A DNA stretch of 64,000 nt from the NCBI GenBank assembly GCA_017616655.1, contig JAFZXU010000042.1, forward strand, positions 1 to 64,000. Reading direction: 5' to 3'. This document shows positions 3,209-15,885 of the stretch, piece by piece (positions within the stretch are counted from its first letter, which is position 1; every line of letters starts with the position of its first letter). The notes beneath the pieces are model-generated. The model was not told the DNA's origin, searched no databases, and saw nothing but the letters and a program-made list of their open reading frames with translations. The position numbers and the translations under genes are program-made. The stretch is from Bacteroidales bacterium. Lineage in GTDB: Bacteria; Bacteroidota; Bacteroidia; Bacteroidales; UBA932.

Positions 3209-4115
3209 CGTCGTCAAATACCGGGAAAGTACTGGAAACCAGGGCGGAAACCGCCTCTGCATTGGAGGCGTGGCCGGGTTTGAAGGCCTTTATGCGCATC
3301 TTCAGAGGCATTGCGGCCAGGGTCAGGTCGCCGATCAGGTCGAGCAGTTTGTGGCGGGCTATCTCGTTGTCGAACAGGGGCTTGCTCAGGTAGCCTGCGG
3401 AGACTCTCTCTATCGAGGAGAGGTCGAATACCTTGCACAGGTTGGCGACAGCCTCCTCGGAAGGCTCCTCGTCCACCACTACCAATGCGTTGTCGATGGC
3501 TCCGCCCTTGATCAGCCCCTTTCCCAGCAGGGGCTGCAGTTCGCTGAAGAAGCAGAAAGTACGGCACGGAGCTATCTCCGCGGCATAGTCCATCCCCTCG
3601 CGGAACACGGCCGTCTGGCAGCCGACTATCGGCGAGGGATAGTCCACTTCGACCTCGATTTCGAGGGTGTCGGAGGGTTCGAAAACGTATCTGGAGCCCC
3701 CTTCGGTCTCGTACACGAAGGGTTCGTCGATGGTCAGATATTCGCGGTCCGCATCCTGCTCTTTGATTCCGGCCGCAAGGAAGGCGTCGGTGAACGCCTT
3801 TGCGCTGCCGTCGAGAATCGGCACCTCAGGAGCGTCGATTATGATCGAGGCGTTGTCGATGCCCAGTCCGCTGAGGGCGGAGAGGAGGTGCTCGGCCGTG
3901 ATTATCTCCACGTCATTCTCCTGAAGCATGCTGCATCTGGAGGAGGGCGCCGCATTGAAGAAGTTCACCAGAACCGGCCTGCGCCCCGCATCGGAGCGCA
4001 CGAAGGTTATTCCGAAATCCGGAGGGGCGGGCTGCACGTCGATGTGCACAGCTTTGCCGGTATGGAGGCCCACTCCGTCGAAATGGCAGGTTTTGGCTAG
4101 TGTATGCTGTTTCAT
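3198..4115 (-). CDS. lpxC: UDP-3-O-acyl-N-acetylglucosamine deacetylase LpxC (stand-alone)
   Basis: LpxC is the zinc deacetylase that commits the cell to lipid A synthesis. The 305-residue product keeps the metal and catalytic residues: the His of AEHLLSAL (about residue 76), HKLLDLIGD (about 260-268, His and Asp ligands) and the GHASN His near the end (about 287). The ATG at 4115 overlaps the lpxD stop as ATGA. Most Bacteroidota encode LpxC fused to a C-terminal FabZ dehydratase, about 460 residues in all. Here the reading frame ends soon after the GHASN motif and the next gene is lpxA, so no FabZ domain is present. Confidence 0.93.
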
Positions 4116-5077
4116 TGCTTCTTTTTTCCGGATTGTTTGAATACCGCGTAGGCCCGCATATAGTCCCAATAGTCGATTGCAGGGAATCCGAGGAGGGTCC
4201 CACCCTCTTTCTTCACATTTCCTGCCACACCGGTCCGGGCGGCGATCGTGGTGTTGTCCGCCACGGTTACGTGGTCGGCAACGCCGCTCTGACCCGCGAT
4301 TATGCAGTTGCGGCCTATCCTTGTCGAGCCTGCGATGCCGCACTGGGCCGATATCACGGTGTTCTCGCCGATTTCCACGTTGTGGGCTATCTGGCAGAGG
4401 TTGTCTATCTTGACTCCGTCTCGGATCACGGTAGAGCCCATCATGGCGCGGTCGACGGTGGTTCCGGCACCGATCTCCACATTGTTGCCTATCACGACGT
4501 TGCCTGTCTGGGGAATCTTCCTGTAGGTGCCGTCCTCCATCTTCGTGAAGCCGAATCCATCGGCCCCGATTACGGCGTTAGCGTGGATTATGCAGTTGTC
4601 GCCGATTTCGCAGTCGTGGTAGATTCTCACTCCGGGATAGATTATGCAGTTACTGCCGATCCTGACCTTGCGGCCGATATGGACCTGGGGGAAGATATGG
4701 GTGCCGCGGCCGATGCGGGCGGATACCGCTATATGGTTGCGGTAGTCGAGCCAGCGGGCGGAGAAGCGGTTGCCGCGCAATTTGTTCTTTTTCAGCGAGT
4801 CAAAGAACTCGAGCAGCAAGGTCACTCCCTTGTAGGGATCGTCCACGCGGATCAGGGTGGCCGTCAGCGGCTGTTTGGGCTCGAAGTCGCGGCCTACTAT
4901 GATTATGTCGGCCTTACAGCTGTCGAGATATGATTCGTACTTCGGGTTTGCATAGAAGCAAACCGTTCCGGGGCGGCCGTATTCGATGCGCGCAGGGGCA
5001 GAAACCCTCACCTGAGGGTCCCCTTCCACCGTCCCGCCGATGCGTTCCGCTATCTCTTTTGCTGTTAAACTGACCAT
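4112..5077 (-). CDS. lpxD: UDP-3-O-(3-hydroxyacyl)glucosamine N-acyltransferase LpxD
   Basis: LpxD adds the second acyl chain, on the amino group exposed by LpxC. The 321-residue product has the N-terminal uridine-binding domain (about 1-100, with the CFYANPKYE segment) and a long left-handed beta-helix of hexapeptides (about 105-300), including the QIAHNVEIG segment that carries the catalytic His. I use the ATG at 5077, giving [15 protein letters not shown]; an upstream in-frame ATG would lie before the promoter-like box at 5094-5101. It is the first gene of the lpxD-lpxC-lpxA-wbqC operon. Confidence 0.93.
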
Positions 5078-5093
5078 AGTCCTGACAAGATTA

Positions 5094-5101
5094 CAAATAT
5101 A
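5094..5101 (-). promoter_or_regulatory. Putative -7 box for the lpxD operon
   Basis: Read on the minus strand the bases are TATATTTG, matching the Bacteroidota -7 consensus TAnnTTTG. The lpxD ATG lies 16 bases beyond the last G. A TTTG at the usual 19-20 base spacing is not obvious, so the -33 element is weak or absent. Confidence 0.5.
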
Positions 5102-5150
5102 ACTCTCTTTTTCCAAATAATCGATATTTAATGCTTTAGTTTTTGATGTT

Positions 5151-5297
5151 TTTGGCCCGCTTTATTTGCTCCGGGATGTTCCCCTTCAAACCTTCCGCTT
5201 CGCTCCATCCCTCCCACTTCGTGGGCCCCTCCCGTTCATGTTACCACGGGCGGCACAGGTTTGAAGTGAAACATTCCTCCGCCTAGGGCGGGCTAAG
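5151..5297. repeat. Structured intergenic element, copy A
   Basis: Nested inverted repeats fold this 147-base stretch. The outer helix pairs 5151-5160 with 5288-5297 (core GGCCCGC with GCGGGCT). The second helix pairs 5173-5180 (GGGATGTT) with 5270-5277 (AACATTCC). A 3x3 internal loop follows, then a third helix, 5184-5192 (CTTCAAACC) with 5258-5266 (GGTTTGAAG). Inside are a CCCAC-TTC-GTGGG hairpin and a CCCGT/ACGGG hairpin. Copy B at 15731-15885 has the same layout, a near-identical core and identical loop segments, but different helix sequences that remain complementary. I see no open frame in it. It could be a folded RNA or a DNA-level palindromic repeat; function unknown. Confidence 0.75.
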
Positions 5298-5343
5298 TGT
5301 AGTTCGCCATAGAGATCGGAAGTACAAGACATTGTTTTTTTTG

Positions 5344-5351
5344 TATATTTG
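5344..5351 (+). promoter_or_regulatory. Putative -7 box for the small RNA
   Basis: TATATTTG matches TAnnTTTG and is followed by C. It sits just before the terminator-ended RNA region, so transcription would begin near 5356. No good TTTG is found 19-21 bases upstream, which is a weakness. Confidence 0.5.
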
Positions 5352-5355
5352 CACT

Positions 5356-5492
5356 GTCTTAACAACGTGGGCCTGTTACTCGATAGACACCCACCTGGGC
5401 GGCCTTTTTAGGGAGAGTTAAGGGAAAGGGTAGGTCGGTAGCCCCTTATTTTATAACAGCGGCTTCTAGTCATAGGGTCGCTGTTTTTTTTT
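5356..5492 (+). ncRNA. Putative small RNA, possible Bacteroidales 6S-like RNA
   Basis: This roughly 135-base segment has a promoter box at its 5' side and a strong intrinsic terminator at its 3' side, with no plausible open reading frame. Visible helices: 5358-5363 (CTTAAC) with 5417-5422 (GTTAAG); 5367-5371 (GTGGG) with 5390-5394 (CCCAC), extended by TGTT with GACA around an ACTCGATA loop; and GGGC near 5397 with GCCC near 5441. A separate promoter for rimP lies after the terminator, so this is an independent transcript and not simply a rimP leader. The size and genome-wide expectation that Bacteroidales make a 6S RNA make that a candidate identity, but I cannot confirm it by eye. Confidence 0.55.
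5455..5492 (+). terminator. Intrinsic terminator of the small RNA
   Basis: AACAGCG at 5455-5461 pairs with CGCTGTT at 5479-5485, leaving a 17-base loop, and the stem runs directly into an unbroken T tract to 5492. It would separate the small RNA from the rimP operon. Confidence 0.8.
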
Positions 5493-5516
5493 ATTTGCCA
5501 AAAAAAATATAAACTA

Positions 5517-5547
5517 TTTGTCATTTAGCGGTTTTTCTATATCTTTG
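5517..5547 (+). promoter_or_regulatory. Promoter of the rimP-nusA-infB operon
   Basis: A TTTG at 5517-5520, a 19-base spacer and TATCTTTG at 5540-5547 match the Bacteroidota -33/-7 promoter exactly. Transcription would start near 5553, leaving a leader of about 75 bases before the rimP ATG at 5629. Confidence 0.8.
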
Positions 5548-5628
5548 CAGCCGTTAGATGAAGATGTGCAAGGGGGCCCGACGGTCCCCTTGTCTATTAT
5601 ACCGGACCGAAAGGAGATATTTACGACA

Positions 5629-12485: not shown

Positions 12486-13661
12486 CTATTCGACCAGCCC
12501 TACGGCCTTGTTCCAGGCCAGGGTCCTGTAGAAAGCATTCAGCTTTTCATATTCGGGATACGGCAGATAGACGCCGAATCCCGAATATTTGTTTATGTCT
12601 ATGCTGAGGAAAGTCGGGGTCGCCGCCTTGTAAACCGTGCAGGCTGAGAGGGCGCTCTGGAATGCCGAATACTCGCTTGAGCCGGCAACCCGGGAGATTA
12701 TGTCGTCGAGGTCATAGGACCAGTGTACGCGGCAGCGGTCGTACCACTGCAGCCGGTTGCGGTTGATCGCGGCGATCTCGCTCCGGTGGTTTGACACTAT
12801 CCGGGAGGTCACCTGCATCAGGTCGCCGAGCGCGGAGGTGTTGACCACGGTAACCGTAGCTCCGCCGTGCTGGGAGTTGTAATAGTCGTAGTACTCGGAG
12901 GCGATGGCGGTGCATGCCGCGGCCTTGTCGGGATTCTGGAGGAGCTCCTCCATCATAATATAATAAGGGAAGCCCTTCGCCATTATCTCGGTGGGGGAAA
13001 CCACCAGGTAGTCGCACTTGTTGCGCAGCTCGCAGGCCACCTCCACTTCGCCCATCAGGCAGGAGTCGAAGATGATGACATCGTATTTGAAGGGAAGGGC
13101 CGCCGCAAGGTCGGGAATCTCTATCTCCTCCTCCGAGCCGTAGTCATGCCCGAAGGTGCGGCGCTCCACGCCGGTTGCTCCGCGTGCGCGGAGGTCGGAA
13201 TCCCCGTACCATAGCTTGTCATAATAACCGGTGGGAAGGAATCCCGTGGAGTGGGACCACATCACCAGGTTGTGATGGTCGGCGGGGCATATCGCCTCGG
13301 CGTCGGCTATCACTTGCCTGAGGGTGGAGACCGATGCGGAGTTCTGGTCGGCGGGATAGCTGTAGAGCACCAGTTCCTTGATGACTCCGCTGGAGGTCTT
13401 GGATATCTTCATCAGGACGGGAGCCGCATCGGGAACATGATAATAGACCAGCAGGATGTCGGCATCGGCCTTATCCTCCGGGATGTAGCCGGAACGGAGC
13501 TGCGAAAGGCAGTCGGGCCCGTAATACTCAAGGCTGTTATTCCCCGCCAGATAGATCAGGACGGAGGTAGTCTCACGGCGCGGCTTAGGTCCGCAGGAGA
13601 CTGCGGAGAGCACCATCGGGACCAGCGCCAGAAGCCATATCAGCCTTTTCATGAGTTTCAT
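12486..13661 (-). CDS. Clostripain-like (C11) cysteine peptidase, lipoprotein
   Basis: The 391-residue product starts with a signal sequence ending in a lipobox-like VLSAVSC, so it is probably anchored in the envelope. The C11 catalytic His is in VMWSHSTGF (about residue 135) and the Cys in IIFDSCLMGEVEVA (about 200). Family members cleave after Arg or Lys and many mature by self-cleavage. I start at 13661 (MKLMKRL); 13652 is an alternative. A -7-like box at 13668-13675 lies only 6 bases before this ATG. The gene converges with the rubrerythrin gene and diverges from the M49 peptidase gene. Confidence 0.82.
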   Translation of the reverse strand: MKLMKRLIWLLALVPMVLSAVSCGPKPRRETTSVLIYLAGNNSLEYYGPDCLSQLRSGYIPEDKADADILLVYYHVPDAAPVLMKISKTSSGVIKELVLYSYPADQNSASVSTLRQVIADAEAICPADHHNLVMWSHSTGFLPTGYYDKLWYGDSDLRARGATGVERRTFGHDYGSEEEIEIPDLAAALPFKYDVIIFDSCLMGEVEVACELRNKCDYLVVSPTEIMAKGFPYYIMMEELLQNPDKAAACTAIASEYYDYYNSQHGGATVTVVNTSALGDLMQVTSRIVSNHRSEIAAINRNRLQWYDRCRVHWSYDLDDIISRVAGSSEYSAFQSALSACTVYKAATPTFLSIDINKYSGFGVYLPYPEYEKLNAFYRTLAWNKAVGLVE

Positions 13662-13696
13662 AATCAACAAAGGTAAGATTATTTCCTTAATAGTTG

Positions 13697-13704
13697 TACA
13701 TTTG
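13697..13704 (+). promoter_or_regulatory. Putative -7 box for the M49 peptidase gene
   Basis: TACATTTG matches TAnnTTTG and lies 18 bases before the ATG at 13723. No convincing TTTG stands 19-21 bases upstream. Confidence 0.45.
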
Positions 13705-13722
13705 TACATAAATCAAACCAAT

Positions 13723-15726
13723 ATGAGAATCTTGAAAAGAATGATGATTTTAGCGGGCCTGGGACTTACCTTGACGGCCTGCACCGAAAAGGAGAAAGAG
13801 GCGGAATTCGCCTACTGCATCGACCAGTTCGCCGACATCCAGGTACTCCGGTACCGGATTCCGGGATGGGATGATCTTTCGCTGCAGCAGAAGGAATACA
13901 TCTACCACCTGAGCGAGGCGGCAAAGGCGGGCCGCGACATCACCTGGGACCAGAACTTCAAATACAACCTCAGGATCCGCCATCTGCTCGAGGATATTTT
14001 CGAAAAGTATGACGGGGAACGCGCAGGCGAAGAGTGGGATAATTTCCTCGTCTATGCCAAGAGGGTCTTTTTCAGCAACGGAATCCATCACCACTATGCA
14101 GATTCAAAGATTCTGCCCGGGTGCTCGAAAGAGTATTTCCAGGCTCTTGCGGATGCCGTGGAAACAGATCCCGAAGAGTCGAAGATTCTCCTTCATATAA
14201 TATACGACCCCGACCTCTACGCAACCAAGCGCTACCAGGGCAACGACAAGGACATCGTGAAGGAGTCCGCTGTCAATTTCTATGAGGGTGGTTTGACGGC
14301 CGCCGAGGTCAACGCATTCTACGGCAAGATGGAGGCGGCGGCAGACGAGCATCCGGTAGCCTTCGGCCTCAACAGCAGGCTCGTCAAGAAGAACGGCAGG
14401 ATTTACGAGGAGACCTACAAGGTGGACGGAGTCTATTCCGACGCCATCAAGGTCATAATCGCGCACCTCGAAAAGGCGCGCGAAGTGGCCGAGAACGACC
14501 TGCAGAAGAAGTATATCTCCGAGCTTATCGAGTATTACACCACCGGCGACCTGAAGATGTGGGACCAGTACAATATCTCCTGGGTGGCTGACACCGACTC
14601 CGACGTGGACTTCGTGAACGGCTTCGTGGAGGATTACGGCGACCCTCTCGGCCGCAAGGCGCACTATGAGGGAATCGTCGACTACCGCGACAGGGAGGCA
14701 TCCCGCCGCACCGAGATCATCAGCTCCAACGCCCAGTGGTTCGAGGACAACTCCCCCGTCGATCCCCGTTTCAAGAAGGAGGAGGTCAAGGGCGTTTCCG
14801 CCAAGGTCATCAACGTGGCGGTCATTGCCGGCGACGATTATCCCGCTACGGCAATCGGCATAAACCTCCCCAATTCCAGCTGGATACGCAAAGAATACGG
14901 TTCAAAGTCGGTGACCATAGCCAACATCACCGATGCTTATGCAAAGGCGAAGGAGCAGGCTCCGAAGAGCATCCTCACCGAATTCGCGTGGGACGAGAAG
15001 GAAATCGAGCTCTGCAAGAAGTACGGCACCGTCACCGACGACCTGCACACCGACCTTCACGAGTGCCTCGGACACGGTTCGGGACAGCTGCTGCCCGGCG
15101 TTCCCGCCAACTCTCTCAAGGAGTTCTCATCGACCCTGGAGGAGGCCCGCGCAGACCTTTTCGCCCTCTATTATCTGGCCGATCCCAAACTGGTGGAGCT
15201 CGGACTGCTTAAAGACAAGGAGGCATACAAGGCCGAGTACATCTCATATATACGCAACGGTCTCTTCACCCAGTTCACCCGCATCGAGCCCGGCCAGAAG
15301 AATACCGAGGCGCACATGCAGAACCGCAAACTGATTGCCGACTGGTGCTACGACCACGGCAAGGCGGAGAATGTCATCGAAAAGAGGGTCCGCGACGGAA
15401 AGACCTATTTCGTGATAAACGACTATAAACGTTTACGCGAGCTTTTCGGCGAGTTGCTGAAGGAGGTTCAGAGGATCAAGTCCGAAGGTGATTTCGAGGC
15501 CGGAAAGGCGCTGGTCGAGAAGTATGCGATAGATATCGACCCTGAACTTCACCGCGAGGTTCTCGAGCGATACGCAGCCCTCGAGCTTAAGCCTTACAGC
15601 GGTTTCGTGAATCCGGATATAGTGCCCGTTGAGAAGGACGGCAAGATCGTCGACTACGAAATCGTTTACAACGACGACTTCCTCAAACAACAGCTCGACT
15701 ACGGCAAGAAGTATAAGACTTTATAG
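13723..15726 (+). CDS. Dipeptidyl-peptidase III family (M49) zinc peptidase, lipoprotein
   Basis: The enzyme removes N-terminal dipeptides from oligopeptides. The 667-residue product begins with a lipoprotein signal (LGLTLTACTEKE), placing it at the envelope. The M49 zinc signature HECLGH is at about 446-451, and the second motif EEARAD at about 474 supplies the third zinc ligand. The family is best known from eukaryotes but is common in Bacteroidota. The start at 13723 gives the signal peptide; the longer reading would begin upstream of the promoter box. Structured element B begins 4 bases after its stop codon. Confidence 0.9.
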   Translation: MRILKRMMILAGLGLTLTACTEKEKEAEFAYCIDQFADIQVLRYRIPGWDDLSLQQKEYIYHLSEAAKAGRDITWDQNFKYNLRIRHLLEDIFEKYDGERAGEEWDNFLVYAKRVFFSNGIHHHYADSKILPGCSKEYFQALADAVETDPEESKILLHIIYDPDLYATKRYQGNDKDIVKESAVNFYEGGLTAAEVNAFYGKMEAAADEHPVAFGLNSRLVKKNGRIYEETYKVDGVYSDAIKVIIAHLEKAREVAENDLQKKYISELIEYYTTGDLKMWDQYNISWVADTDSDVDFVNGFVEDYGDPLGRKAHYEGIVDYRDREASRRTEIISSNAQWFEDNSPVDPRFKKEEVKGVSAKVINVAVIAGDDYPATAIGINLPNSSWIRKEYGSKSVTIANITDAYAKAKEQAPKSILTEFAWDEKEIELCKKYGTVTDDLHTDLHECLGHGSGQLLPGVPANSLKEFSSTLEEARADLFALYYLADPKLVELGLLKDKEAYKAEYISYIRNGLFTQFTRIEPGQKNTEAHMQNRKLIADWCYDHGKAENVIEKRVRDGKTYFVINDYKRLRELFGELLKEVQRIKSEGDFEAGKALVEKYAIDIDPELHREVLERYAALELKPYSGFVNPDIVPVEKDGKIVDYEIVYNDDFLKQQLDYGKKYKTL

Positions 15727-15730
15727 AAAA

Positions 15731-15885
15731 GCGACAGTTGCCTCTGCTCCGGGCAGTATATCCTGGAAACCTCCGCTTCGCTCCGTCCCTCCCACGGCAT
15801 GCCGTGGGCCCCTCCCGTTCACGTGGCCACGGGCGGCCACGGTTTCCAGAACATACTGCCACTCCGCAATAACGGCAACTGTCGC
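15731..15885. repeat. Structured intergenic element, copy B
   Basis: Same architecture as the element at 5151-5297. The outer helix is a perfect 12-base inverted repeat, 15731-15742 (GCGACAGTTGCC) with 15874-15885. The second helix pairs GGCAGTAT (15752-15759) with ATACTGCC (15853-15860). A 3x3 internal loop (ATC/AAC) precedes the third helix, CTGGAAACC (15763-15771) with GGTTTCCAG (15841-15849). The core has a CCCACGGC-AT-GCCGTGGG hairpin and a CCCGT/ACGGG hairpin. The loop string TGCTCCGGG and the core pieces TCCGCTTCGCTCC and GTGGGCCCCTCCCGTTCA are shared with copy A. No coding potential is evident. Confidence 0.75.

Follow-up and report, generated by a model that had tools for sequence, protein, structure and literature searches.

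Two intergenic elements about 10 kb apart in the genome of a Bacteroidales bacterium (UBA932; NCBI GenBank assembly GCA_017616655.1) raise the question of what kind of element keeps its helices complementary while their sequences change from copy to copy. Both lie in the first 64,000 nucleotides of contig JAFZXU010000042.1, the whole stretch analysed here (hereafter the window). The initial annotation took compensatory change with conserved loops as the signature of a selected fold, in RNA or single-stranded DNA, and contrasted it with a recently copied transposable repeat, which would keep identical helices. We investigated the layout of the two elements, their copies in this and other genomes, the strand that folds, and the orthologous sites with and without a copy.

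Layout of the two elements

Element 1 (5151-5297), delimited by direct reading, blastn and a covariance model, is intergenic, between the divergent LpxD gene (4112-5116, minus strand) and RimP-like and NusA genes on the plus strand; its folded strand is probably the minus, G-rich one, judged from wobble pairs and folding energy. Element 2 (15731-15885, minus strand) is separated by 4 bases from the end of the open frame 13651-15726. Both palindromes were found at the positions first claimed and have a common nested plan. The outer helix (P1) had been described as having 10-12 pairs, which is right for element 2 (15731-15742/15874-15885, 12 pairs) but not for element 1, where direct reading gives nine pairs, one of them G.T, between the left arm at 5152-5160 and the right arm at 5288-5296. 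The identical string reported at the helix edge is TGCTCCGGG in both elements (5167-5175 and 15745-15753). The 8-pair helix, 3x3 internal loop and 9-pair helix were likewise read in both: in element 1 a 3x3 loop separates P2 GGGATGTT (5173-5180/5270-5277) from P3 CTTCAAACC (5184-5192/5258-5266), the joint left arm (5173-5193) being 86% complementary to the right (5257-5277), and in element 2 P2 (15752-15759/15853-15860) is followed by a 3x3 loop and P3 (15763-15771/15841-15849), with 90% complementarity between 15752-15771 and 15841-15860.

The core had been described as two hairpins, and two are present, but an H-type pseudoknot had been overlooked. In element 1, all on the minus strand, the core consists of P4, a GC-GNA-GC mini-hairpin (5197-5203, minus-strand letters GCGAAGC), the P5 hairpin CCCAC-GAA-GTGGG (5213-5225), flanked on the minus strand by the conserved purine runs GGGAGGGG and AGGG, and the pseudoknot (5231-5256; S2 5231-5235/5246-5250, S1 5240-5245/5252-5256), in which one A.C of S1 on the plus strand is G.T on the minus (G-rich) strand. 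In element 2 the minus-strand P5 (15791-15808) has 8 bp, longer than that of element 1 and with another stem sequence, and the pseudoknot, read directly (15814-15840, minus strand; S2 15814-15818/15829-15833, S1 15823-15828/15835-15840), has a perfect S1 of 6 bp. The likeness of the two elements is far beyond chance.

Beside element 1, on the plus strand at 5330-5490, there is probably a separate small RNA gene of about 150 bases, followed by a hairpin with a T run; it has no Rfam match at the gathering score, and it is preceded by the string TATATTTGCAC, which we take to be promoter-like, of the Bacteroidota type.

Copies and distribution

In its own genome (2.09 Mb, 73 contigs), element 1 retrieved 29 places by blastn. 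A covariance model (R1, 117 positions), built from an alignment of 19 own-genome copies (A1), gave 43 matches (E <= 0.01); copies of the family are about 120-200 bases long. The model and genome search that had been proposed as a check returned far more than two copies, and many more in related genomes: R1 matched 29 of 61 relatives, every one a member of the window's genus, where 29 of 37 genomes (counting the window's own) had matches as against 0 of 24 from other families, with 1 to 46 copies apiece. In an order-wide sample at E <= 1e-6, at least 6 of 393 genomes matched (the own genome, two other genera of the family and three other families), a lower bound obtained with stricter filters than in the genus search. 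In one record (L160, 4405-4878) three copies stand in tandem with a period of about 187 bases.

An exact core 25-mer was present in at least 109 stretches of public genomes. Among the matches listed were 92 records assigned to Bacteroidales or Bacteroidia (many of ruminant-gut origin), including one Candidatus Cryptobacteroides fimicaballi (L186) and two labelled Alistipes, and 17 from Microbacterium, Azospirillum, Magnetospirillum, Pelagibius and other Alphaproteobacteria; uniformity of P5 among these loci is uninformative because they were chosen by the exact 25-mer. Three Microbacterium records (L088, L165, L175) carry core copies within locus-specific palindromic arms, L165 and L175 at the same site with compensated arm changes, and two genomes searched (L088, L165) gave one pattern match each. 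The Microbacterium and Alphaproteobacteria matches are either relatives or convergence. In Azospirillum rugosum (the L091 genome) we found 45 exact matches of CCCTCCC-hairpin-GGGCCCCTCCC (reversed control, 0), with varied stems and several head to head about 60 bp apart; these repeats have the 25-base core string in common with our element but differ in their arms, and no pseudoknot was seen in them. Carriage by phage or plasmid was considered and dropped, as the exact 25-mer had no match in viral contigs and a distant blastn search with element 1 found none in phage and plasmid records.

The family fold and its covariation

Read 5' to 3' on the C-rich strand, the family has a variable P1, an internal loop bearing GCTCCG-like strings on either side, P2 and P3 of about 19 bp together, and a core of P4 (a GC-NNN-GC mini-hairpin), CCCT, P5, CCCCTCCC and the H-type pseudoknot, followed by the return arms. 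In five loci (L082, L083, L084, L085, L325) P5 is about 45 bases larger and forms a second structured domain (matches of 165-167 bases). That the helices differ in sequence yet stay complementary is borne out by A1, in which both partners have changed in 18 of the 19 arm pairs. Standard pairs occupy 89.1% of the A1 pair cells vs 76.2% with the 3' letters shuffled (0 of 500 shuffles as high), and pairing is 39-46% with partners slid by 1-3 columns; P5 pairs are invariant across A1. Over many genomes, own arms exceeded the 99th percentile of between-copy crossed arms in 115 of 183 copies, and every crossed pair in 56; 68 were under the 99th percentile, and some of these we read as having short or decayed arms. 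The 183 include a few Microbacterium and Alphaproteobacteria copies. A GGGNCCCNCCC-type string was required of copies in the pooled arm and wobble, pseudoknot, orthologous-site, absent-site and frame scans, which favours conserved cores.

Arm pairing by itself says little for a selected fold: the arms could also be kept matched by template switching or mismatch repair inside the palindrome. An explanation built on this is that the element is a by-product of DNA metabolism, its arms matched in that way, its core homogenised by ectopic conversion, and its fold unselected. We regard it as possible but unlikely, and the pseudoknot counts against it: its interleaved stems covary across subfamilies, and correction of nested arms within a palindrome is not an easy cause of that. 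All four S1 pairs form in 134 of 167 copies and at least three in 165, both S2 pairs form in 156 of 167, and 6 further copies had no candidate. S1 occurs as GGCC/GGCC, TGCC/GGCA, AAGC/GCTT, AGCC/GGCT, AACC/GGTT, TTGC/GCAA, CTGC/GCAG and others. Since the pseudoknot was spotted by eye and then tallied, with pairing maximised over three spacer lengths, the fair comparison is the crossed control, in which 27 distinct S1 types (at least three pairs) average 1.73 of 4 pairs vs 3.52 with their own partners. In an alignment of 41 ungapped distinct rows (A4), all with a 1-base spacer and a 6-base loop (the loop length of 92 of 167 copies) and picked after pairing was maximised, 99.2% of cells are paired vs 81.0% when shuffled and 40-59% when slid; two of five measures were not above shuffles: 41 of 500 shuffles had at least as many pairs changed on both sides, and 417 of 500 at least as many further pair types.

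Which strand folds

The initial annotation described the fold on the plus strand, whereas the complementary, G-rich strand folds best by wobble pairs and by folding energy. Isolated arm mismatches in 107 deduplicated copies with strong arms could form G.U on the G-rich strand in 60 cases vs 24 on the C-rich strand (p = 1e-4), and before deduplication (115 copies) in 66 vs 26; the stricter aligner behind both counts was devised after an earlier count with a permissive aligner was known to show no contrast (GT 1279, AC 1209). RNA folding energy was lower on the G-rich strand in 148 of 176 copies, with means of -75.0 (G-rich) and -69.0 kcal/mol (C-rich) in a model that leaves out pseudoknots. On the G-rich strand the loops of P4 and P5 are what we take to be GNA triloops, which argues for that strand, and the one-base and longer loops of the pseudoknot are placed there as, presumably, an A-form H-type pseudoknot requires. 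We infer that the fold sits on the G-rich strand, as RNA or single-stranded DNA. Strand-biased mutation could be a source of the wobble asymmetry, which otherwise speaks against a by-product of DNA metabolism. As to compensatory change as the mark of a selected fold, the paired changes and the conserved core stand, but pairing of the arms alone does not suffice; the interleaved pseudoknot and the wobble strand asymmetry are the better evidence. Most of the outcomes that the initial annotation had named as refuting it did not arise.

Orthologous sites with and without a copy

The closest genome in the genus (G013) is 77-86% identical over the pieces around the elements. At the site of element 1 (L001) it lacks the element and about 200 neighbouring bases, the junction being imprecise; at that of element 2 (L309) it has a perfect hairpin and then what appears to us to be the end of a group II intron. 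The element 2 site (L019) is also without the element in G019, G022 and G030, which have short, differing spacers. Loci L138 and L153 each lack the copy of the other, and the L169 and L394 sites lack theirs in L361 and L403; in all of these the whole palindrome is absent. Five absent-copy sites were aligned, out of a longer list of candidates. At one of them (the L365 site in L362) the element is missing and a 10-bp hairpin equal to the outer helix of the filled site is retained; this pair fits an 11-base imperfect target-site duplication, and none was clear at the four other aligned sites. A different insertion, about 117 bases long and with CACTGTGACGAGTT repeated at its ends, is present in one of two close genomes (G068, L366 about 1655-1772, vs G069, L373).

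The hairpin in L362 raises the alternative that the core is a mobile unit entering the loops of existing hairpins, so that the arms are those of the target. L365 accordingly has at most bases 31-108 of 136, the core, in common with its paralogues, and cores of the B type are alike in unrelated arms (ten own-genome copies: core identity 92%, arm identity 38%, 45 pairs). However, no comparable hairpin was seen at the four other aligned sites or at L310, core-less long perfect hairpins are rare in the window, and the L362 hairpin may be either a target or the footprint of a deletion between CCGG repeats. Insertion specific to hairpin loops, as suggested by L362/L365, is not general across the aligned sites, and we hold it to be improbable.

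Comparison of 35 own-genome loci with 15 of the 18 G013 copies found a copy in the same place only at L006 and L023. Some orthologous copies are nearly unchanged (L048/L052, L089/L187, L035/L036, L110/L123 and six G068/G069 pairs). In L048/L052 the adjoining bases are as conserved as the element, and in L089/L187 the core is 98% identical vs 82% for the flanks; in another G068/G069 pair, the seventh, which lies in miaA, the G069 copy has lost 17 core bases. At the trmB site in three MAGs, L100 differs from L110/L123 by compensated arm changes around an identical 46-base stretch of core. L006 and L329 have the same core type in wholly different paired arms, although their left flanks are almost the same as far as the arm. 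In L023/L031 and L093/L143, where both flanks match, the core is inverted with respect to them, and so it is in L099/L164, where one flank matches.

In L093/L143 the flanks are 95-96% identical and yet 7 of 28 arm pairs have changed on both sides and the core is inverted, which suits an origin in DNA metabolism, as does a tendency, judged by eye, for cores of one genome to resemble each other more than cores of G000 resemble those of G013 (L008 and L019 are among the exceptions). The arm changes of L093/L143 looked too fast, and hypermutation of the arms was considered; by our uncomputed estimate ordinary neutral drift on both sides could suffice. One group of own-genome copies has its arms in common, and we read this group as a younger one. 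The contrast with a transposable repeat drawn at the outset is not supported: the element is a dispersed repeat gained or lost between species, and some of its copies share arms.

Copies in frame inside genes

Among 190 copies scanned, 28 rows lay in long open frames (some rows spurious or duplicated), from which 13 intragenic loci were chosen by eye and 10 submitted to NCBIfam. All 10 frames were recognised, eight of them above a curated cut-off: class I fumarate hydratase (FumA), MtaB, ThiL, AroE, TrmB, PrmC, shikimate kinase, TruB, MiaA and MurB, with the AroE and shikimate kinase frames under the cut-offs. Two intragenic copies (L029 and L087) are in the genome of the window itself. The MurB genes of G068 and G069 carry two copies each, of which one is in the same place in both genomes and the other is not. 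The frame is kept, relative to relatives that cover the sequence on each side of the insertion, in L048 and L052 (orthologues), L087, L121 and L394, 9 of 185 copies being open to this comparison. L103, L127, L153 and L169 were flagged as out of frame or mixed, and we take them to be located between two genes; the flag on L394 came from an antisense reading, the sense frame of that copy resting on the open-frame scan and NCBIfam.

A structured element inside conserved genes might be tolerated as a self-splicing intron, but an intron needs no frame, and the intragenic cases with an unbroken relative (within the nine judged, L048 and L052 being orthologues) are all in frame; we give this explanation hardly any weight.

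More is to be said for a functional structured host RNA, a regulatory RNA or ribozyme whose many copies would reflect its action at many places in the genome. Covarying helices with a pseudoknot and a conserved core, wobble on one strand, and a core kept in place between species while the flanks diverge (L089/L187) are what such an RNA would have. In such an RNA one would not expect the core to face the other way, with respect to the genes beside it, at two orthologous sites and probably at a third, nor copies to occur in both orientations relative to (crudely called) neighbours, to sit in frame in unrelated genes, or to have counterparts at only 2 of 35 own-genome loci in the G013 comparison. 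The proposed comparison with Rfam also yielded no family at cut-off: Rfam 15 matched none over the whole window at the gathering score; an E-value search of 5120-5560 gave matches outside element 1, all under their cut-offs; and one of 10 loci gave a microRNA model on both strands of Microbacterium L165, at 28 bits vs a cut-off of 97. We think a host RNA rather unlikely.

RAYT genes as candidate mobilisers

REP, BIME and REPIN repeats are palindromes scattered through genomes that presumably depend on a folded single strand, and REPs within palindromes have been reported (PMC3733652). The element is a dispersed palindrome too, and its single-strand-like structure would suit movement by RAYT, a Y1 HUH transposase (PF01797). 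PF01797 matches occur in 24 of 29 element-bearing and 2 of 8 element-free genomes of the genus (one of the two under the cut-off), and at L260, in the own genome, about 2 kb separate a copy from a PF01797 gene. The locations of the genes in general, however, do not support this. The model matched nothing in 30 PF01797 loci taken with flanks of up to 1.5 kb (92,343 bases, one locus from Azospirillum), and of 20 larger loci, about 4 kb long and in part covering the same genes, 19 had no copy; L270, a PF01797 locus, had two matches at chance level. Sixteen of the 20 loci have a perfect stem of at least 12 bp within 260 bases of the gene, and these genes therefore have palindromes of their own. 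A PF01797 match is absent from 5 of 29 element-bearing genus genomes, including G021 with its 25 copies, and from the L148 genome (some genomes being incomplete). In Azospirillum rugosum the only PF01797 gene found is not beside the repeats.

Beyond these loci, the element differs from REP-type repeats in its larger and more complex fold, and in A1 no GTAG/GTRG (or CGTC) tag at the hairpin foot stood out by eye. RAYT as the mobiliser, prompted by the head-to-head Azospirillum copies and by co-occurrence, is thus not supported by gene location, and we rate a REP/REPIN-type origin as poorly probable. The RAYT-like genes of L259-L278 encode about 290-310 aa, and several have nested palindromes with CTGATAATCAG-like strings, of similar plan but with other cores.

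Relation to known repeats and the favoured explanation

Miniature inverted-repeat transposable elements (MITEs) have conserved ends. Like them, our element is small and gene-less, with inverted arms and many copies; unlike them, its ends vary and its centre is conserved, as in the B-type copies. In all, the element departs from RAYT/REP repeats in two tests and from MITEs in that of conserved ends. With Rfam structured RNAs it shares covarying helices and a pseudoknot. No comparable Bacteroidales element was found in the open PMC literature, and the remark that no named Bacteroidota element has this plan agrees with both that search and Rfam at its cut-offs.

By described behaviour rather than by sequence, the element appears most like the Rickettsia palindromic elements (RPEs). 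The portions of the accounts used here describe these as palindromic long stem-loops of about 100-150 bp, several families per genome, both intergenic and in frame in conserved genes (PMC2229807, PMC10969869), or as ten families of repeats about 150 bp long, whose copies are frequently joined in frame to conserved genes (PMC10969869, PMC2229807). The element is likewise palindromic, of about the same size, present in many copies (43 in its own genome) and in frame in unrelated conserved genes; it differs in belonging to another phylum, and the same portions mention no pseudoknot core, locus-specific paired arms or core inversion (PMC2229807, PMC10969869).

We consider it probable that the family is a small selfish dispersed palindromic element, RPE-like, moved by a putative enzyme that acts in trans and reads the folded core. 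This reading rests on copy number, genus-wide spread, covariation of helices and pseudoknot, and the signals on the G-rich strand, together with element-free orthologous sites, in-frame copies, inverted cores, compensated changes and the contrast of core and arms in B-type copies; its mobility is judged from gains and losses between genomes. In this reading, an enzyme acting in trans would recognise the core folded on the G-rich strand, either as single-stranded DNA in replication or as RNA, and the element would spread through that recognition, the arms merely holding the core in a hairpin. After insertion the arms may drift at roughly neutral speed while still matched, and the near-perfect palindrome would permit the core to flip, so that flips and arm matching would be consequences of the palindromic form. 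Copies would be selfish and tolerated between genes or in frame, and would not be regulators of their neighbours.

Against a selfish element it may be said that a search for a mobilising gene, covering the RAYT family, found none, that G021 and the L148 genome carry copies and have no RAYT genes, that sites without the element could be deletions instead of gains, and that the core is at times better conserved than its flanks (L089/L187), unlike that of a dead selfish copy. For the core to be conserved in place, either conversion among the copies or selection on every one of them is required; cores tend to be alike within a genome (by eye, with exceptions), which would favour conversion. It is conceivable, though doubtful, that what is copied is the conserved core itself, as a selfish folded RNA or single-stranded DNA. 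The element would then be the bacterial equivalent of a short retroelement, its pseudoknotted core being written again and again into new places and its arms made or remade at each; if true, this would explain near-identical cores in unrelated perfect arms.

The selfish, RPE-like reading that we prefer bears on how such folds are recognised. Paired changes in arms, the classic sign of a functional RNA, are seen here in an element that is gained and lost between species and that flips, which calls for caution. Palindromic repeats in frame within genes are best known from Rickettsia, and the present family adds another case, to all appearance unrelated, from gut bacteria. Its dozens of genomes, well-defined orthologous sites and conserved knotted core make it a system in which fold, strand, gain, flip and arm drift can be measured.
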